Below, piece by piece: positions 45,185 through 54,495 of a DNA stretch of 64,000 bases. Under the pieces are notes generated by a model, which made no database searches, had not been told where the DNA came from, and saw only the letters and a list, made by a program, of their open reading frames with translations. The position numbers and the translations under genes are program-made. The DNA is from Turicibacter sanguinis (GTDB lineage Bacteria > Bacillota_I > Bacilli_A > MOL361 > Turicibacteraceae): assembly GCF_013046825.1 (NCBI RefSeq), contig NZ_CP053187.1, forward strand, positions 1,849,501 through 1,913,500, written 5' to 3'. Position 1 is the first letter of the stretch. Each line of letters begins with the position of its first letter.

Positions 45185-46828
45185 TTACCATTGGAATTCT
45201 TTCCAATCTTCCGCGTATTTAGAGAATAATTCGTTAACTGCTTTACCAATTTCAGCGTATTCTTCATCTTTTAAGTTAGCTAAGGAAACACGGATTGACC
45301 AAGATGGCCCTTCGAATCCACTACCGTTTAATAAGACGATACTGTATCGATCGGCTAATTCGAATAAGAATTCTAATGGGTTACGTTTTTCTTTTAAGTA
45401 TTTAACGAACTCCTCACCGTATTTTAATTTTGCCCAAACAAGAAGGTCAATTTCATTGTAGTATGACGTACTATATGGATCTTCTTTATAAGATAAGTTA
45501 TCAAAGTTATCATATAGTAAATGTTTACGACGACGGCAAATTTCTTTCGTTTGTTCTTTATAAACATTTTCTTTATCTAATAAGGCAAAGATAGAGAAGA
45601 TTGCCATTTGGACCTGACAAGGAGTGGATAATCCAGCAGTGTGGTTAAGTGCAACCTGACGGCTATCTGCTACGATACGATCGATAAATGGAATATTATC
45701 TGGATCAGTTGTTAAGGCGCCATAACGTTCACGTAAAATATCTTTTTCATCTTCTGGTAATTTGTTGATTAAGTGATTGAAGACATTGTCTTTTTCTAAT
45801 GCGATAACCCCTAAACGCCAACCAGTGACACCGAAGTATTTAGAGTACGAATAAACTCCTAATGTGTTGTAAGGAAGGGTACACATTAATGATTTGAAAT
45901 CGTTAGAGAATGTACCATATACGTCATCGGTAACAATCATTAAATCTGGATTTTGACGTTGTACGACTGATTTTAAGTAATACATAGACTCTTCGTTGAT
46001 TGCAACTGACGGTGGATTACTTGGGTTAACAACACAAGCTAATTTGATGCTAGTATCTGCTAATTTATCTAACTCTTCTTGCGGATATTGCCAAGTATGA
46101 CGGCCTTCTTCACTAATTTCTGAAGCATAAATTTTTACGATATCGAAATGATAACGAGGTAAGTTAGCAATTTCTACATAAGGGGTAAAGATTGGAACGA
46201 ATAAGGCGATTTTATCTCCTGGAGATAAAATGCGGTTGGCAATTAGTGAGTCGAAGATATAGCACATTGCGGCTGTACCACCTTCAACAGCGTATAATTG
46301 GTGAGTAGATGTTTCGGGATTCCCACCCATTTCTTTAATCACATAATCTTTCACAACTTGTTCGATATGGATTAACATACGATCAGGAACTGGGTAGTTG
46401 TCACCGATAATAGCATCAACTAATTCAAATACCCAAGAATCTGGATCAAATCCTTTATCTTTAATACCATATTCAATGATGTTAGATAGTAATTCAATAC
46501 CAGGAGCATCTTTATGATTTCTTACATAAGAGGTGAATCGCTCATAAATTCCTGGTTTTTCAGGCATACCAGCTAAATCTTTTTCATGCCAAGTACGTTG
46601 TGTTTCTTCAACGGCGAATTGTCCAAGAGTGAAGAAGGCTTGACGTGGAGTGGCAGCTGTCCAGTTAGGATTTCCGCGTCCTGCATTGAGCATAATACGG
46701 ACACCTTTTTGTTCAGATTGTTTAGCCATATGAATTAACTCATCTTTTAATTCAAATGGGCTTAAGTGTTGTACTCTTTCAATGATATCATTGATTTTTT
46801 TACGCTTAACTTCAGCTCGTGTAGTCAT
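45185..46828 (-). CDS. aspD: aspartate 4-decarboxylase / aspartate aminotransferase
   Basis: PLP enzyme of 547 aa (family length about 530-550) that decarboxylates L-aspartate to L-alanine and CO2. Fold-type I signatures: NAGRGNPNWTA near the N-terminus, YAVEGGTAAMCYIFDSL, ACVVNPSNPPSVAINE, MIVTDDVYGTFS and the PLP lysine in GVYSYSKYFGVTGWRLG. The long N-terminal extension distinguishes it from plain aminotransferases. ATG 46828 follows GAAAGG. The antiporter gene aspT is directly upstream (42 bp), so the two form the aspartate/alanine cycle. Confidence 0.94.
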   Translation of the reverse strand: MTTRAEVKRKKINDIIERVQHLSPFELKDELIHMAKQSEQKGVRIMLNAGRGNPNWTAATPRQAFFTLGQFAVEETQRTWHEKDLAGMPEKPGIYERFTSYVRNHKDAPGIELLSNIIEYGIKDKGFDPDSWVFELVDAIIGDNYPVPDRMLIHIEQVVKDYVIKEMGGNPETSTHQLYAVEGGTAAMCYIFDSLIANRILSPGDKIALFVPIFTPYVEIANLPRYHFDIVKIYASEISEEGRHTWQYPQEELDKLADTSIKLACVVNPSNPPSVAINEESMYYLKSVVQRQNPDLMIVTDDVYGTFSNDFKSLMCTLPYNTLGVYSYSKYFGVTGWRLGVIALEKDNVFNHLINKLPEDEKDILRERYGALTTDPDNIPFIDRIVADSRQVALNHTAGLSTPCQVQMAIFSIFALLDKENVYKEQTKEICRRRKHLLYDNFDNLSYKEDPYSTSYYNEIDLLVWAKLKYGEEFVKYLKEKRNPLEFLFELADRYSIVLLNGSGFEGPSWSIRVSLANLKDEEYAEIGKAVNELFSKYAEDWKEFQW

Positions 46829-46870
46829 ACAAAACTTCCTTTCAAATTTTGTTTCAAGATATTAATAAGG

Positions 46871-48556
46871 TTAGGAGAAGAAAATAATAACCAAGGATCC
46901 CCAAACAGTTAATAAGATATTACCAACAGCGTAAGGAACGGTGTATCCAAGTACGGGTGCATTACTTTCAGCTTTCTCAGTAATAGCCCCAATTGCCGCT
47001 GTTGTTGTTAAAGCTCCTGCAGTTGCTCCTAGAGCAATTGGAGCTGAAAATTTGAATACATATTTTCCAAGAAAAATTCCCGCGAATGTTGGAATAAGTG
47101 TCACCACCACACCTGCTAAGAAGAAACTGATCCCTGATGATCTTAAACCAGAAACGAACCCTGGACCGGCATTAATACCGACAACAGCAACGAAAGCAGC
47201 AAGACCAACATTACTTAAGAACCAAGCAGTTCCTTTTGGAATACGACCAATGGTCGGACGACGAGAATGAATTAGTCCAAAGATTAATCCCATAATCAAA
47301 GCCCCACCACTTGTAGATAAGCTGATTCCAACATGGCCAATCGTGAGCGCCGGTATCCCAATTAATCCACCAATTAAAATCCCTAAACCAACGAAAATCA
47401 TATCCGTTTCATCTGAATCACGTGCTGGTTTTCCGATTTTGTACGCTAAAGCTTCTACATCATCAACAGGTCCTGTTAGTGTAATCACATCTTTCTTTTT
47501 AATAACTGTTTCGTTATTATAAGGGATTTCATCTCCTGTACTTTGAAGTTTAGAGATAAAAACACCACGTGTTAAAGTGTTGTGACGAACCTCACTAATT
47601 GATTTTCCAGTAATTTCACTATCTTTAACATAAACAGCCACTGTTTCAGTTGGAAAGTTAATTAACGTATAGTCTGAAATTTCTTGCCCAATCTCTAGAA
47701 GGTTAATTTTAGAGACATCTCGTTCTTTAAAAGAAAATGCAACGCGATCATTTTTTTGGATAATTTCATCCTCATTTGGTCTGAAGACATCATTCCCACG
47801 TTTCATTCTCACCATAAATAGACGAATACCTTCTGTGGCAAGTTTGTGTTCAACTGCTTTTACAGTTTGTCCAATGTAGCAATCATCAATGATATAAGCG
47901 CGATAATCGACATCTCCTGCACGCGAATTTAAAAGTTTTCCTTCAAGTGCATCTTTAGACGCATTATCGATTTTTCGACTTTCTTCAGCTAAATCAACTC
48001 CATAAATTTTTGGACCCAGTGTTGAAAGAACAAAAGCGCATCCGATGGTACCAAAAATGTAAGTGACGGCGTAACCGACTGGAACGAAATCACTCATGGA
48101 TTTAATATCAGCAGCTGAGACTGATAGCTGACTAATCGAATCTTGAGCAACCCCGATAACAGCAGATTGAGTTAAAGCTCCCGCTGCGAGCCCTGCGGCT
48201 TGTCCAGCGTTGTAATGAAGGATTTTTCCAACGATAATTGTTGAAATGAGTCCAATTACGCAGACGATAACTGAAAAAATAACTTGTGGAATTCCGTCTT
48301 TTTTGAGCCCTTTAAAAAATTGAGGTCCTGCATTATAACCTAGAGCAAATAAGAAAAGAAGGAAGAAAACTGATTTTACAGTGGCATCAATCGTGATGTT
48401 TAATTGCCCGATGATAACCCCTGTTACTAATACCCCAGTAACGGAACCGATTTTAAAGGTACCGATTTGGATTTTTCCTACTGCGTATCCAATGGCTAGC
48501 GTTAAAAAAAGCGTTAGTTCTGGATGTGAGCGTAATGCATCGATAAACCATGTCAT
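46871..48556 (-). CDS. aspT: aspartate:alanine exchanger
   Basis: Membrane antiporter of 561 aa in the AAEX family: two blocks of transmembrane helices (about 1-170 and 385-560) flanking a cytoplasmic region with two TrkA-C-like domains (about 205-370, IIDDCYIGQTVKAVEHKL and AVYVKDSEITGKSISEV). It swaps external aspartate for internal alanine; with AspD this consumes a cytoplasmic proton and yields a proton motive force. I start it at ATG 48556 (MTWFIDALRSHPEL), with GAGG upstream; the ATG at 48661 would add a non-homologous extension. Confidence 0.93.
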   Translation of the reverse strand: MTWFIDALRSHPELTLFLTLAIGYAVGKIQIGTFKIGSVTGVLVTGVIIGQLNITIDATVKSVFFLLFLFALGYNAGPQFFKGLKKDGIPQVIFSVIVCVIGLISTIIVGKILHYNAGQAAGLAAGALTQSAVIGVAQDSISQLSVSAADIKSMSDFVPVGYAVTYIFGTIGCAFVLSTLGPKIYGVDLAEESRKIDNASKDALEGKLLNSRAGDVDYRAYIIDDCYIGQTVKAVEHKLATEGIRLFMVRMKRGNDVFRPNEDEIIQKNDRVAFSFKERDVSKINLLEIGQEISDYTLINFPTETVAVYVKDSEITGKSISEVRHNTLTRGVFISKLQSTGDEIPYNNETVIKKKDVITLTGPVDDVEALAYKIGKPARDSDETDMIFVGLGILIGGLIGIPALTIGHVGISLSTSGGALIMGLIFGLIHSRRPTIGRIPKGTAWFLSNVGLAAFVAVVGINAGPGFVSGLRSSGISFFLAGVVVTLIPTFAGIFLGKYVFKFSAPIALGATAGALTTTAAIGAITEKAESNAPVLGYTVPYAVGNILLTVWGSLVIIFFS

Positions 48557-48728
48557 AGTAACTACCTCATTTACTAGATTTTTAAAAATGACAATAATAT
48601 TATTATCTGTGCTAGTAAATTTATGCTGTCTTTTAAGGATTCCCAACAATTTACTACCCAATGTTTGGTTTAAATTTGAAAATCAATATAAACTAATAAA
48701 GATATAATTTTAAAAAAGAGGTGTTTAA

Positions 48729-50114
48729 ATGAATTTTTATTTAATGCCACATCCACCGATTATTATTCCCGCTATTGGAAAAGGGGAAGAATTAAAGCTT
48801 TATAAAACGACATTAGCCTGCAATCAAATTGCCGAGGAAATATCAAAGCTTAAACCTCAAACCATCATTATCATTACTCCCCACGGGCCGATGTTTTCAG
48901 ATGCCATTTGTATTTTAGATGATGAAAAAATAGAAGGTGACTTATCGCAATTTCAATGTCATGATGTGAAGATGAGTCTAACATTCGACCGGGAGTTAAA
49001 TGAATTAATTTTGAATTTAAGTCAAAACAGAAATATTCCAGTTGTCTCAGTTGATCAACATCTTTTAAAAATGTATCATCGTCGATTTCAACTAGATCAC
49101 GGAGTTGTTGTTCCTCTTTACTTTATAAATGAGCAATATCGAGACTATCAATTAGTTCATATTACTTATGCTCCATTAAAAGATCGTCAACTTTATGAAT
49201 TTGGAATGGTTTTACAAGAAGCAGTCAAACAATTAGACCGACAGGTTGTCATGATTGCGAGTGGTGATTTATCACATAAATTAAAAGAAGCAAACATGAA
49301 GTATGGCGAAGAGTTTGATCGCCAGTTTTTAAACCACCTAAAAAAAGGTGAGCTTTTAGAGCTTTTTGAATTAGATAAAGAAGTGGTCTACCAGGTGGCA
49401 GAGTGTGGATTACGCTCGATGAAAATTATGAGTGGTGCCATGGATGGTGGAAAGTATGAAGGTAATGTGTTAGCTTATCAATGTCCTTTTGGTGTCGGTT
49501 ATGGAACGGTAAAGTTTAATTATTTAGGAGTAGGGATAAAAGGATTAAAATATATTGAGAAAAAGCCTAAAATTAAGGCAGTATCGATTTTACAGAAAGA
49601 AAATCCCTATGTTTATGTTGCACGTAAAGCGTTAGAGGATTATTTTCAACAAACTAAAACGCTGTTAACACAGGAAGATTTACCGAGTGAAATGTTTGTT
49701 AAACGGCAAGGTGTGTTTGTTTCCTTAAAAAAACAGGGTCAATTACGTGGTTGTATTGGAACCATTTTTCCAACAACTGATTGTGTAGCAACAGAAATTG
49801 TAAGAAATGCGATTGCAGCGGCAACACAAGATCCTCGTTTTATGCCAGTTGAGGAAGAGGAATTAACCGAGTTAAAGGTTTCCGTTGATGTCTTAACCGA
49901 GCCTATTTCTTGTTCTAAAGAAATGTTGAATCCTAAAAAATATGGGGTCATTGTTAGCTGTGGAATGAAAAAAGGGGTATTATTACCTGACTTAGAGGGG
50001 ATTGAAACAGTCGAGGAACAACTATCAATTGCCTGTCGTAAAGCGGGGATTGGTGAAACTGAATCTTATGAAATTGAACGATTTGAAGTGATTCGCTATC
50101 AAGAAGGTGATTAA
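48729..50114 (+). CDS. AmmeMemoRadiSam system fusion: MEMO/LigB-like domain plus AMMECR1 domain
   Basis: 461-aa protein joining two parts of the system. Residues about 1-255 form a class III extradiol dioxygenase/MEMO-like domain (MPHPPIIIPAIGKGEE, ITPHGPMF, DHGVVVPLYFI, IASGDLSHKL, His-rich metal-site residues). Residues about 290-460 form the AMMECR1 domain (YVYVARKALEDYFQQT, VKRQGVFVSLKKQGQLRGCI, AAATQDPRFMPVEEEEL). The radical SAM partner starts 1 bp after its stop. Function of the system is unknown; both domains occur in human proteins. GAGG precedes ATG 48729; divergent from aspT. Confidence 0.9.
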   Translation: MNFYLMPHPPIIIPAIGKGEELKLYKTTLACNQIAEEISKLKPQTIIIITPHGPMFSDAICILDDEKIEGDLSQFQCHDVKMSLTFDRELNELILNLSQNRNIPVVSVDQHLLKMYHRRFQLDHGVVVPLYFINEQYRDYQLVHITYAPLKDRQLYEFGMVLQEAVKQLDRQVVMIASGDLSHKLKEANMKYGEEFDRQFLNHLKKGELLELFELDKEVVYQVAECGLRSMKIMSGAMDGGKYEGNVLAYQCPFGVGYGTVKFNYLGVGIKGLKYIEKKPKIKAVSILQKENPYVYVARKALEDYFQQTKTLLTQEDLPSEMFVKRQGVFVSLKKQGQLRGCIGTIFPTTDCVATEIVRNAIAAATQDPRFMPVEEEELTELKVSVDVLTEPISCSKEMLNPKKYGVIVSCGMKKGVLLPDLEGIETVEEQLSIACRKAGIGETESYEIERFEVIRYQEGD

Positions 50115-50115
50115 G

Positions 50116-51105
50116 ATGGATGCTCCTGTTTTGTTTTATAAAGGAAAAAAAGATTTAATTCAGTGCGAATTATGTTCACATCTTTGCATTTTATCGGAAG
50201 GAAAGTGGGGGAGGTGTAAAGTTCGGACGGTTCATGATGGACAATTAATTGCAACTAATTTTGGTAAAGTTACCTCAGCAGCTTTTGATCCGATTGAAAA
50301 GAAACCCTTGTATCATTTCATGCCAGGGACTTGTATTTTATCGATTGGAAGTTTTGGATGTAATATGACCTGTTCTTTTTGTCAAAATTATGAGATTTCA
50401 CAACATCAACCTCATTCAAAGACTTTACCGGTTGAACAGTTATGCCAGATTCTTTCTGAACAACCCAATCATGTTGGCGTCGCGTTTACCTATAATGAAC
50501 CTTTCATGTGGTATGAGTATGTCTATGAAGCCGCTAAAAAAATTAAACAAACAATGCCACATCAAAAAATTGTGATGGTCACGAATGGCTATATAAATCA
50601 ATCGCCATTAATGAAGTTATTACCGTACATTGATGCCATGAATATTGATTTAAAAGGATATACCAATCAGTATTACCGTAAAATTTGTGGAGCAAAATTA
50701 AACCCAGTTCTTGAAACCATTAAGCTAGTAGCGAATAAAGTACATCTTGAAATTACAACGTTGCTAGTGAGTGATGAGAATGATTCACTTGAGGAAGTCA
50801 AGGAAATTGCAAAATTTATTGCCAGTATTAATCCTAATATTCCGTTTCATTTAAGTCGATATTTTCCCAAATATAAATTAAATCATCAAGCAACGGAAAT
50901 AGAGGTGTTAATAAAGGCGAAAGCGATTGCTCGAAATTATTTGAATTATGTTTATATTGGTAATGTTGCTAATCTCAATCAAAATACTTACTGTCCCGAT
51001 TGTCAGGAGTTGTTGATTGAGAGAAATTTATATGAAAGCAAAGTTTTTTTAACTGAACCCAAGTGTCCAACCTGTGGAGCAAAAATTGAAATGATATTAA
51101 CTTAA
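50116..51105 (+). CDS. AmmeMemoRadiSam system radical SAM enzyme
   Basis: 329-aa radical SAM protein. An N-terminal Cys-rich stretch (CELCSHLCILSEGKWGRC; C17, C20, C24, C34) precedes the cluster motif C82-x3-C86-x2-C89 (GCNMTCSFCQN). The SAM motif TYNEPFMWYEY follows, and a C-terminal zinc ribbon ends the protein (CPDCQELLIE, CPTCGAKIE). ATG 50116 comes 1 bp after the preceding TAA, with AAGGTG upstream, so expression is coupled. Homologous to pyruvate-formate-lyase-activase-like enzymes but a glycyl radical target is not seen here. Confidence 0.92.
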   Translation: MDAPVLFYKGKKDLIQCELCSHLCILSEGKWGRCKVRTVHDGQLIATNFGKVTSAAFDPIEKKPLYHFMPGTCILSIGSFGCNMTCSFCQNYEISQHQPHSKTLPVEQLCQILSEQPNHVGVAFTYNEPFMWYEYVYEAAKKIKQTMPHQKIVMVTNGYINQSPLMKLLPYIDAMNIDLKGYTNQYYRKICGAKLNPVLETIKLVANKVHLEITTLLVSDENDSLEEVKEIAKFIASINPNIPFHLSRYFPKYKLNHQATEIEVLIKAKAIARNYLNYVYIGNVANLNQNTYCPDCQELLIERNLYESKVFLTEPKCPTCGAKIEMILT

Positions 51106-51195: not shown

Positions 51196-51615
51196 ATGAT
51201 GAAAAAATTGGTTAATACCGCTTTTACTTACACAGTAGTTGCGTTAGTTTGTGGGGTTATTTATCGTGAGTTCACAAAAATGGTAGGATTCACAGGCCAA
51301 ACGAATTTATCATTATTACATACCCACTTATTTACACTTGGAATGTTATTTTTCTTAGTGGTGTTAGCTTTAGAAGCAATCTTTAAAGTAAGTGAGCAAA
51401 AAATGTTCAAGTGGTTCTTTATTATTTATAATATTGGATTAGTTTTATCAGCAATGATGATGGCTGTTCGTGGATTTTTACAAGTTCAAGGAACAGAATT
51501 ATCAAAAGCATTAAACGCTTCAATTTCTGGTATCTCTGGGATTGGACATATTGGTTTAGGGGTTGGATTAGCTTTATTCTTTATTGTTTTAAAACGAAGT
51601 GTAGCGACAAAATAA
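51196..51615 (+). CDS. DUF2871 membrane protein
   Basis: 139-aa protein with four transmembrane helices, matching DUF2871: AFTYTVVALVCGVIYREF, SLLHTHLFTLGMLFFLVVLA with the conserved HTH pair, MFKWFFIIYNIGLVLSAMMM, and GIGHIGLGVGLALFFIVL with a third His. The His residues suggest metal or haem binding, not demonstrated. ATG 51196 follows GAGGAGAG; the in-frame start at 51130 is upstream of the Shine-Dalgarno. Monocistronic. Confidence 0.85.
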   Translation: MMKKLVNTAFTYTVVALVCGVIYREFTKMVGFTGQTNLSLLHTHLFTLGMLFFLVVLALEAIFKVSEQKMFKWFFIIYNIGLVLSAMMMAVRGFLQVQGTELSKALNASISGISGIGHIGLGVGLALFFIVLKRSVATK

Positions 51616-51652
51616 AAAAAGTGATGCAAATCTCATTTGCATCACTTTTTTT
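51614..51652. terminator. bidirectional terminator
   Basis: AAAAAGTGATGCAAAT/ATTTGCATCACTTTTT stem, between convergent genes. Confidence 0.92.
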
Positions 51653-52706
51653 ATGAAGATAAAGCCGTTCTGGGTGGATAATTGGTTTTATCTTTTGATA
51701 AAACGATATGAACAATCATTGAAATGATCCCACTTATTAATAAGAATGAATAAAAGCTAATTCCACGACATAATAACATAGCTGGAACTAATAGATGGCT
51801 TGCAAAAAATAATTTAAAGACACTCATAAAGGCATTTTCTGAAGCTCCGACTGCACCTGGTAAGGGAATAGAGGAAACAGCTAATGAAACGAGTGCTTGT
51901 AAGGAAATAATTTCAAGCATAGTATATGTATTTAAATGAAAGGCTTTGTAGACGAAAAATGGAACAAGATAAGTGGCAGTTAGTTGAATCGTTGTTGTCA
52001 ATACAATTTGAAGTAGTAAAAGGGGTTGCGTTTTAATGTAAGCTGCGCCTTTTGTATATTCTAAAACGAGTGTTTCTAGTTTTTGACGGGTTGCTTCAAC
52101 ATTTTTTAGAAGTTTCATTTTGGCCAATAAGGTCGTTAAAAAATTAATTAACTGATAAATGAATTTTTTAGAAAACATTGCCATCAAAATTGCAGTCGTT
52201 AAAATTAAATTAATAGAGACACTAAAGATTAAGAAATATTTAATTCCATTTAAGTTAGTCATGAGAAAGTCATGATTGACTAAAAAGAGAATTCCACCAT
52301 ATAACATCATGACAATTTGATAAACGACGGTAATAATTAATAAATTTAAGGAAGAGTAAGAAAGATTAATTTTTGCTTTACTCATATAAAACATTTGAGC
52401 GGGTTGGCCTCCAGATGAAGAGGGGGTAATCGAACTAAAGTAGAATCCTACGAAAGCAAACCCTAAACATTTAAGATATGAAACCTTTTGTTTTAAAGCT
52501 TTCATAATGGAAAAAGTATTCATTGCTTCGCATGCCACAAAAATAAACATCATAGCAAGTCCTAATAGAATGTAAAATGGATTCACCGTTTTGAGTGCTT
52601 GGAGAAGCGAACTGATGGATTGATCTTTGAAAATGAAATAACTTGTCAAACCCATTAGGAGTATCATAAATAAAAGACTTAAAGATTGCTTTGTTTTACT
52701 ATTCAT
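51651..52706 (-). CDS. flippase-like membrane protein (LPG synthase TM/UPF0104 family)
   Basis: 351-aa polytopic protein with about eight helices, of the lysylphosphatidylglycerol synthase transmembrane/YbhN type: FVGFYFSSITPSSSGGQPAQM is the diagnostic loop, and ISLQALVSLAVSSIPLPGAVGASENAF near the end. It lacks the cytosolic synthase domain, so it probably moves a lipid or polyprenyl-linked sugar across the membrane. It overlaps the deacetylase gene by 4 nt (ATGA), last of the three-gene module. Confidence 0.87.
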   Translation of the reverse strand: MNSKTKQSLSLLFMILLMGLTSYFIFKDQSISSLLQALKTVNPFYILLGLAMMFIFVACEAMNTFSIMKALKQKVSYLKCLGFAFVGFYFSSITPSSSGGQPAQMFYMSKAKINLSYSSLNLLIITVVYQIVMMLYGGILFLVNHDFLMTNLNGIKYFLIFSVSINLILTTAILMAMFSKKFIYQLINFLTTLLAKMKLLKNVEATRQKLETLVLEYTKGAAYIKTQPLLLLQIVLTTTIQLTATYLVPFFVYKAFHLNTYTMLEIISLQALVSLAVSSIPLPGAVGASENAFMSVFKLFFASHLLVPAMLLCRGISFYSFLLISGIISMIVHIVLSKDKTNYPPRTALSS

Positions 52707-53398
52707 AAAGAACTCCTTTCTAGTGTAATGAAGTGATAACCTTGTTGTTTTAAATGTGGAAGTGTTGTTTTTAATGCCTCAAGCATACGTTTTGGGGCTA
52801 AAGGATCGGCATAGGCGCCATGTCCTGAATCATGTAAACATAAGATAGAGGAGTCATTAATTGAATTCAAAATTTTATTTTGAAGAATTAAGCTCATACT
52901 ATTGTAATCCCAATCGTTAACCATTAAATTCCATAATATCATGGTTAAATCGTGTTTTTTTACAAAGTAATAGGTGAAAAGATTCGTATGTCCCCACGGG
53001 GGACGGTAATAATGAGATTTTACACCGATTTCTTCCATGATTTCAAGGCTTTTAGAGAAATCTTTTTTAGTATAAATGTAACTATAAAACCAAGCGTTTC
53101 GATGATTTAATGAATGAAGGGCAATCGTATGTCCCTCCATTTGCATACGTCGTACTAATTCAGGGTGTTGCAAAGCATGATCAGCGACGACGAAAAAGGT
53201 TGCTTTAATTTGATGTTGTTTCAATAAATCTAATAGTTTTGGGGTATACAAAGGGTTGGGGCCATCATCGAATGTTAGCATAATTCCTTTTTTTGGTGTC
53301 GATTTTATCACATTTTTATTAATCATCTTATTATAATATGTTGGTAAAATAGAGTGGATCATAAACAAAATGATTAAAATTGTAGAAAATAGTTTCAT
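52703..53398 (-). CDS. polysaccharide deacetylase (CE4, membrane-anchored)
   Basis: 231-aa NodB-fold deacetylase with an N-terminal membrane anchor (FSTILIILFMIHSILPTYY). Motif 1 GIMLTFDDGPNPLYT (TFDDG), metal-binding HSLNH (about residue 96), motif 3 YYRPPWGHTN, and motif 4/5 LCLHDSGHG with catalytic His. Removes N-acetyl or O-acetyl groups from an extracellular glycan or glycolipid. It overlaps both neighbours by 4 nt, so glycosyltransferase, deacetylase and flippase-like protein are made from one mRNA; the substrate is probably that module's product. Confidence 0.9.
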   Translation of the reverse strand: MKLFSTILIILFMIHSILPTYYNKMINKNVIKSTPKKGIMLTFDDGPNPLYTPKLLDLLKQHQIKATFFVVADHALQHPELVRRMQMEGHTIALHSLNHRNAWFYSYIYTKKDFSKSLEIMEEIGVKSHYYRPPWGHTNLFTYYFVKKHDLTMILWNLMVNDWDYNSMSLILQNKILNSINDSSILCLHDSGHGAYADPLAPKRMLEALKTTLPHLKQQGYHFITLERSSL

Positions 53399-54495
53399 GA
53401 TGCATACGCTCCTAACTGTACAGATAAAATAATCTCTTCTAATGCATTTTTATCAAATTGTTTTTTTAATTGTTGCATGTTGCGTTTAATCTCATCTAAA
53501 GCCTTTGCATCATAAATAAGATTAGAAACCATTTCAATATAATCTGTTTGCTTTTTTTGAATGACATGTCCAAGGCAATGAAGTGAAATAAAGTTCGCGT
53601 TATTTACTTCCTGTTGTAAAAATGGTTCAAAGACAAGCAACGGAATTTCAGAATTAATCGCCTCAAATACCGTGATTCCACCTGGTTTAGAAATCATTAA
53701 ATCAGCTTCTTGCATAAATTTATATACCTGGTCCGTAAATCCAATGACCTCAATATTTTGGTATTTATTATGCAATAAATTAAAAAGACGCTTGTTTTTC
53801 CCGGTAATTACCGTTGTTTTAACATGATTTAATTGATTTAGTGCTTCATAAAAAGATTCGGATTTGGGTAAGAGACCAAGACCACCTCCCATAATTAATA
53901 ATTTCTTTTCATAGCTGTGACTATTTTTAAATGAAGACTCAATCGGTTCATTGAATTCGCGCTTAACAGGGATCCCGATGACTTGTATTTGACTGGCATG
54001 CACGCCTTTATTAATAAGGTCCATTTTGATAGAAAGAGAAGCAACTAAATAATAGGTTGTATTTTCATTAATCCATTCACAGTGACTACTTACATCAGTG
54101 ATACAGGTAACAAAGGGAATTCTTTTTTTCGATTTTTTATCATAGTGAGACAATAACTGAGAACAAAACGGAACGGTTGAAATAATTAAAGTTGGATTTA
54201 ATTCATTTATTAATTGCTGAAGAGAACGTGAAAAGTAGTCCACTAAAATAGGTTTTTGATTAATTTCCCCTTTTTCTGACAAACGATAGAAAAAGTTATA
54301 GCAAGTACTGGCTCGATTAATTAATAAATTAAAACTTTTATACAGGATATTTGAAACTCTGGGAGCTGAATATTCAAAAAAATCAACAATTGAAATTGAA
54401 GCATTTGGAAATTTTTGTTGAATTTGCTGTTCGATTGAATGCGAAGCAGAATAATGTCCCATTCCAAATTTAGCAGTTAAAATTAATATTTTCAT
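53395..54495 (-). CDS. diacylglycerol-type glycosyltransferase (MGDG synthase/UgtP-like)
   Basis: GT28-family glycosyltransferase of 366 aa. MGDG_synth N-terminal domain: KILILTAKFGMGHYSASHSI (GxGH motif), SISIVDFFEYSAPRV and LSEKGEINQKP; C-terminal donor-binding fold with MGGGLGLLPKSESFYEAL, VIGFTDQVYKFMQEADLMIS and KPGGITVFEAINS. The acceptor is likely diacylglycerol, as for processive UgtP, but specificity is not shown. GGAG precedes ATG 54495. First gene of the coupled module. Confidence 0.9.
   Translation of the reverse strand: MKILILTAKFGMGHYSASHSIEQQIQQKFPNASISIVDFFEYSAPRVSNILYKSFNLLINRASTCYNFFYRLSEKGEINQKPILVDYFSRSLQQLINELNPTLIISTVPFCSQLLSHYDKKSKKRIPFVTCITDVSSHCEWINENTTYYLVASLSIKMDLINKGVHASQIQVIGIPVKREFNEPIESSFKNSHSYEKKLLIMGGGLGLLPKSESFYEALNQLNHVKTTVITGKNKRLFNLLHNKYQNIEVIGFTDQVYKFMQEADLMISKPGGITVFEAINSEIPLLVFEPFLQQEVNNANFISLHCLGHVIQKKQTDYIEMVSNLIYDAKALDEIKRNMQQLKKQFDKNALEEIILSVQLGAYAS

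Follow-up and report, generated by a model that had tools for sequence, protein, structure and literature searches.

What does a gene pair that brings together a Memo/LigB-type domain, an AMMECR1 domain and a radical SAM (rSAM) enzyme do? Conservation of Memo and AMMECR1 reaches from archaea to humans, and the bacterial system adds a separately encoded rSAM partner. One such pair lies in the window, the stretch of 64,000 nucleotides of Turicibacter sanguinis DNA that was analysed:

48729 to 50114, plus strand: fusion of a Memo/LigB-type domain with AMMECR1 (AmmeMemoRadiSam proteins B and A), 461 amino acids, identified by NCBIfam and Pfam scores and an AlphaFold model
50116 to 51105, plus strand: AmmeMemoRadiSam rSAM enzyme, 329 amino acids from the ATG, identified by TIGR04337, a structure model and its superposition on pyruvate formate-lyase activating enzyme (PFL-AE; Z 23.5)

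A single base (50115) separates the stop codon of the fusion from the ATG of the rSAM gene, which might instead start at a GTG at 50107, with a slightly longer open reading frame. The fusion scored 137.3 bits with TIGR04335 (protein A; cut-off 99) and 41.6 bits with TIGR04336 (protein B; cut-off 26), and the second frame scored 288.4 bits with TIGR04337 (rSAM; cut-off 220); the three components whose co-occurrence marks AmmeMemoRadiSam are adjacent in the window. The pair is an AmmeMemoRadiSam system, and the reading frames, the spacing and the three models agree with an earlier sequence-only reading, which had described a MEMO-like/AMMECR1 fusion followed at 1 bp by an rSAM gene. That reading had also held the reaction of the system to be undescribed, and no published reaction for AmmeMemoRadiSam was found in the open-access literature; a passage of PMC7159879 cites Burroughs et al. 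2019, the main comparative study, for Memo-AMMECR1 systems that include this rSAM.

The window's pair is an ordinary member of this known, uncharacterised system, and nothing in the window sets it apart. It shares all three components, and the order of fusion then rSAM, with most of the Bacillota relatives retrieved. In that set, whose retrieval favours close relatives, the fusion lay directly upstream of rSAM in 60 of the 76 loci with a called rSAM gene, and the gaps, with start codons chosen by a simple rule, ran from -11 to 324 bases; the fusion, earlier singled out as noteworthy, is thus the standard architecture in Bacillota. Of 15 genomes in which no fusion was found beside rSAM, 13 encoded AMMECR1 and 14 encoded Memo at another site, and AMMECR1 was often fused to a classical Memo domain in such genomes. 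The neighbourhood survey that had been proposed as a check bore out the pairing, and no third gene was broadly kept beyond fusion and rSAM when 998 neighbouring open reading frames from 80 loci were clustered; two genes identified by eye from sequence, one for a LysE-type transporter and one for an N-acetylmuramoyl-alanine amidase, recurred at 14 loci each, in only part of the sample. Genes resembling rplM and rpsI, together with an amidase, stood just upstream of the fusion at four loci (L015, L028, L037 and L070), and at one further locus (L003:2444-3855) a Memo-AMMECR1 fusion was split into two frames by a frameshift or an assembly error.

Several features of the surrounding window were also recorded. 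Divergent to the fusion, the minus strand at 45185-48661 encodes an aspartate 4-decarboxylase (TIGR03801) beside an aspartate-alanine antiporter (TIGR03802), a known proton-motive metabolic cycle. Two paralogous M20-family amidohydrolases (TIGR01891; 43418-44596 and 54927-56138) lie on either side of the region, roughly 10 kb from each other. A DUF2871 protein is encoded directly downstream of rSAM (51199-51615), in a position kept in all five genomes of the genus, whether rSAM is present or absent. Further along, the minus strand at 51651-54495 encodes an LPG_synthase_TM protein, a polysaccharide deacetylase and an MGDG-synthase-like glycosyltransferase, with overlaps of a few bases between the genes, which suggests an operon, perhaps for envelope lipids.

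The N-terminal part of the fusion holds one domain and a set of candidate metal ligands:

48729 to 49532, plus strand: LigB/Memo-type domain, residues 1-268, with a class III extradiol dioxygenase fold (PF02900 and structural superposition)
48750 to 48752, plus strand: His8, predicted metal ligand, histidine in 60 of 61 fusions with a gap in the other
48882 to 48884, plus strand: His52, predicted metal ligand, present in 61 of 61 fusions
49401 to 49406, plus strand: Glu225-Cys226, with Cys226 predicted from conservation and profile alignment as the third ligand of the metal (MEMO1 C244)

The label MEMO-like, given to this domain by the sequence-only reading, holds only in part. Pfam LigB (PF02900) matched residues 3-259 far more strongly (E 3.7e-52) than Pfam Memo (PF01875) matched the fusion (E 3.2e-6, 27 bits at a cut-off of 27), and within AmmeMemoRadiSam the window's Memo part is a LigB-like subtype, not the classical PF01875. 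The best fold match of the AlphaFold model of the fusion (built from 31 sequences, pLDDT 90) was TK2203 (5HEE; Z 31.4); class III extradiol dioxygenases, HpaD-like and LigB enzymes among them, gave Z 22-28, with aminophenol and homoprotocatechuate dioxygenases at 27-28, and human MEMO1 (PDB 7KQ8, 3BCZ), a related fold, gave 19.7 at about 12% identity in the structural alignment. Judged by this model, the domain resembles class III extradiol dioxygenases more closely than it does MEMO1, from which it further differs in its fusion to AMMECR1 and its pairing with rSAM. In keeping with the label, an invariant cysteine, Cys226 (61 of 61 fusions), pairs with the Memo cysteine in the profile comparison, at the third metal-ligand position.

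As in the dioxygenases, the His pair, further pocket histidines and a glutamate at 225, which pairs with the Glu of the HpaD GEGG motif, are kept. Unlike them, the fusion adds Cys226 right after this Glu, which is itself Gln in 5 of the 61 sequences (Glu in 56), and has a genetic link to AMMECR1 and rSAM. The two possible third ligands thus seem to be neighbours in the domain, and conservation speaks for the cysteine rather than E225. In hhalign, His52 aligns with the PSH motif of Memo (MEMO1 H81), displaced by one residue, and His8 is probably the counterpart of LigB H12 and MEMO1 H49, because model residue 1, where the structural alignment begins, corresponds to MEMO1 residue 42. MEMO1 binds iron through H49, H81 and C244, and no dioxygenase activity was detected for it (PMC11081632). 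The residues of a 2-His-1-Cys site of this type are invariant or nearly so in the fusions, which may bind metal through H8, H52 and C226. D180 and H183 are invariant among the 61 fusions and H124 nearly so, making these pocket residues about as conserved as the ligands.

The C-terminal half of the fusion is an AMMECR1 domain:

49608 to 50096, plus strand: AMMECR1 domain, residues 294-456 (PF01871, E 1.6e-45; 1vaj, Z 20.8)
49743 to 49763, plus strand: LRGCIGT motif, residues 339-345, with R340, C342, G344 and T345 invariant

The Pfam match spans residues 296-455, and the model of this part superposes on AMMECR1 structures with Z 16-21; fold and LRGCIG motif are both those of the AMMECR1 family (human AMMECR1; 1VAJ, 1ZQ7). 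The glycines and the cysteine of LRGCIG are invariant across relatives, and the motif lies on a beta strand in the AlphaFold model. Human AMMECR1 retains LRGCIG, and a disease variant falls in the motif (PMC5502304).

The rSAM protein carries cysteine motifs on both sides of its radical SAM core:

50164 to 50217, plus strand: N-terminal four-Cys motif C17-x2-C20-x3-C24-x9-C34, invariant in 77 of 77 sequences, a candidate ligand set for Zn or an auxiliary Fe-S cluster
50359 to 50382, plus strand: radical SAM CxxxCxxC motif (C82, C86, C89), invariant in 77 of 77 (PF04055, E 5.8e-18)
50992 to 51075, plus strand: C-terminal zinc ribbon CxxC...CxxC (C293, C296, C317, C320), in 70-71 of 77 sequences and absent from many family members

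Both the extra N-terminal cysteines and the ribbon had been noted before and are there as described. The argument then made from the ribbon for a protein or RNA substrate is a weak one, since about 55 of the 86 rSAM matches in one class sample (that of G001) end before it, an approximate figure because the alignments are local, although most of those open frames are short as well. Short family members without the ribbon also rule it out as an essential part of the enzyme. A further cysteine, C191 (50686-50688), lies outside any cluster motif and is kept in 73 of 77 members.

When the rSAM model (pLDDT 95.4) was compared with known folds, a comparison in which residues 1-50 were covered by few matches and the N-terminal fold lay outside its scope, the core superposed best on PFL-AE (3CB8, 3C8F; Z 23.5 over 224 residues, rmsd 2.4), the next protein reaching Z 17.9; PFL-AE was also nearest in sequence. 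The window's rSAM differs in its added four-Cys motif and zinc ribbon, and the PFLA model TIGR02493 gave it 55.5 bits against a cut-off of 231.75. From these scores the enzyme resembles the PFL-AE family without being a member, and no glycyl radical enzyme partner was recognised near fusion and rSAM among the neighbouring frames of the 80 loci.

Genome co-occurrence bears on how the two proteins depend on each other. A sample of 195 genomes taken around that of the window had rSAM above cut-off in 11 and AMMECR1 in 13, and all 11 rSAM genomes had AMMECR1; among 245 genomes of the class of G001 the figures were 86 (E <= 1e-40) and 95, again with AMMECR1 in all 86, or in 97 of 97 rSAM-bearing genomes when both samples are pooled. 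AMMECR1 without rSAM occurred in two genomes of the first sample and nine of the second. One of these nine (G433) has its rSAM cut by a contig end and two (G254, G331) carry a stand-alone divergent AMMECR1 and no rSAM; the remaining six (G414, G455, G424, G359, G448 and G327) encode a fusion whose metal-site and LRG-C-(I/M)-GT motifs are intact and have generic, low-scoring rSAM matches only. The dependence is one-sided: in these two samples rSAM always occurs with AMMECR1, and the fusion can persist without rSAM, which is not obligatory everywhere since intact-site fusions occur without it. In another rSAM-less genome, of the window's own class (L115, G199), the fusion keeps H8, H52, C226 and C342 and has H124Y, R340H and T345A.

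Within the window's genus, the absence of rSAM takes a different form. Of five genomes, rSAM was present in three (the window's, G210 and G196) and absent from G079 (99% complete, one contig) and G211 (85% complete). The DUF2871 gene directly follows the fusion in these two and follows rSAM in the other three; the rSAM gene is therefore missing from an otherwise syntenic locus. The fusion frames of both genomes (L114:3583-4923 in G079, L129 in G211) are open, at 447-453 amino acids, and both have lost H52, H124, D180, C226, R340, C342, T345, N360, D368, R370 and F371. Altogether 32-34 of 78 highly conserved positions are lost in G079 and G211, compared with one or two in G210 and G196; the losses lean modestly towards H/C/D/E/R/K, a bias that is no more than suggestive (Fisher p 0.06 and 0.03).

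Between G211 and G079 dS was 1.41 and dN 0.30, a dN/dS of 0.21 that is close to the 0.11-0.24 found between rSAM-bearing members, and in a neutral simulation the frame was never stop-free, even at 0.1 substitution events per site; the rSAM-less fusion of G079 and G211 is under purifying selection. In a tree the five genus members grouped together (support 1.0), with G079 and G211 sharing a long stem branch (1.10 substitutions per site). The fusions of the genus stood beside those of Clostridium and Terrisporobacter, not with most sequences of the window's class, and horizontal transfer of the genus's fusion is possible from its placement.

The simplest reading of these losses is that rSAM was lost once and that both candidate active sites went in a burst of change, in either order, with the fusion then retained in a non-catalytic role. 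The rSAM gene and both sites are gone from the two genomes, and the protein left behind may serve as a pseudoenzyme; as far as could be checked, such an rSAM-less pseudoenzyme lineage is new, that is, without earlier description. Their joint loss in G079 and G211 suggests that rSAM and fusion work as one unit in which the rSAM step is dependent on the fusion.

The explanation that we tentatively prefer, at somewhat less than an even chance for the whole, is a metal-dependent fusion with a radical step by rSAM downstream, the two forming one functional unit in the genus. The fusion would most likely be a metal-dependent enzyme in which H8, H52 and C226 hold Fe(II) or a metal like it, and the LRGCIG face of its AMMECR1 domain may be a second catalytic or substrate-holding centre. 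The PFL-activase-type rSAM would, most likely, use a 5'-deoxyadenosyl radical to abstract hydrogen from something that the fusion makes or presents. Because the gene dependence is one-sided, we place rSAM as the dependent step: it would require the fusion, and the reverse would not always hold. The three centres would behave as one unit in the genus, where the loss of rSAM went with that of both active-site candidates and the fusion left behind was apparently retained as a pseudoenzyme. That the system runs an undescribed O2-independent reaction, with a dioxygenase-fold Fe-(His)2-Cys centre and a PFL-activase-type rSAM working one after the other, and that rSAM loss in one lineage left the fusion as a pseudoenzyme conserved in a new, non-catalytic role, is possible and on balance rather unlikely.

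The same resemblance to PFL-AE, which includes the peptide-bound entry 3cb8, can be read otherwise: rSAM might be an activase that modifies the fusion itself, abstracting hydrogen from a glycine of LRGCIG or modifying C342, much as PFL activase acts on its glycyl radical enzyme. The invariant glycines and cysteine of the motif, and its loss together with rSAM in G079 and G211, are consistent with this, but six rSAM-less genomes keep both LRG-C-(I/M)-GT and the metal site. Human AMMECR1 retains LRGCIG too, and this rSAM is not known from humans. A glycyl-radical site is a loop, unlike the predicted beta strand of LRGCIG. We consider the activase reading unlikely, and its strict form, in which activation of LRGCIG obligatorily requires rSAM, is weakened by the rSAM-less genomes with the motif intact.

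Improbable to a similar degree is the modification of an external macromolecule, protein or RNA, which the four-Cys motif and zinc ribbon of rSAM would help to bind. Base modification is reportedly among the suggestions made for the system by Burroughs et al. in 2019; the N-terminal Cys motif is invariant, and RlmN, TYW1 and Mmp10 appear in the fold list of rSAM. These three enzymes nonetheless score well below PFL-AE, the ribbon is absent from most of the sampled members of one class, as noted above, and the neighbourhoods showed no conserved third gene that might encode a protein substrate.

Less probable again is a fusion that mainly binds iron or senses redox state and that rSAM repairs or loads, with no common pathway. 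The iron site of MEMO1, its lack of detected dioxygenase activity (PMC11081632) and the alignment of Cys226 with the Memo cysteine fit such a role; against it, the conservation of H124, D180 and H183 at about the level of the ligands suggests catalysis over storage, and the listed clusters of neighbouring genes contained no recurring iron-related one. That the fusion is an O2-dependent extradiol dioxygenase with a catechol substrate, beside an unrelated rSAM, appears very improbable, for although aminophenol and homoprotocatechuate dioxygenases are among the closest folds and E225 aligns with the HpaD Glu, that residue varies to Gln beside an invariant C226, fusion and rSAM co-occur consistently, and many relatives are, judged by name, from anaerobic groups.

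The metal-dependent fusion with a dependent rSAM step is the reading that we tentatively retain, and the window's genus offers a means of approaching its chemistry. One genus contains species with the complete system and species with a stripped fusion, a natural comparison in which a differing metabolite or modification could reveal the reaction.
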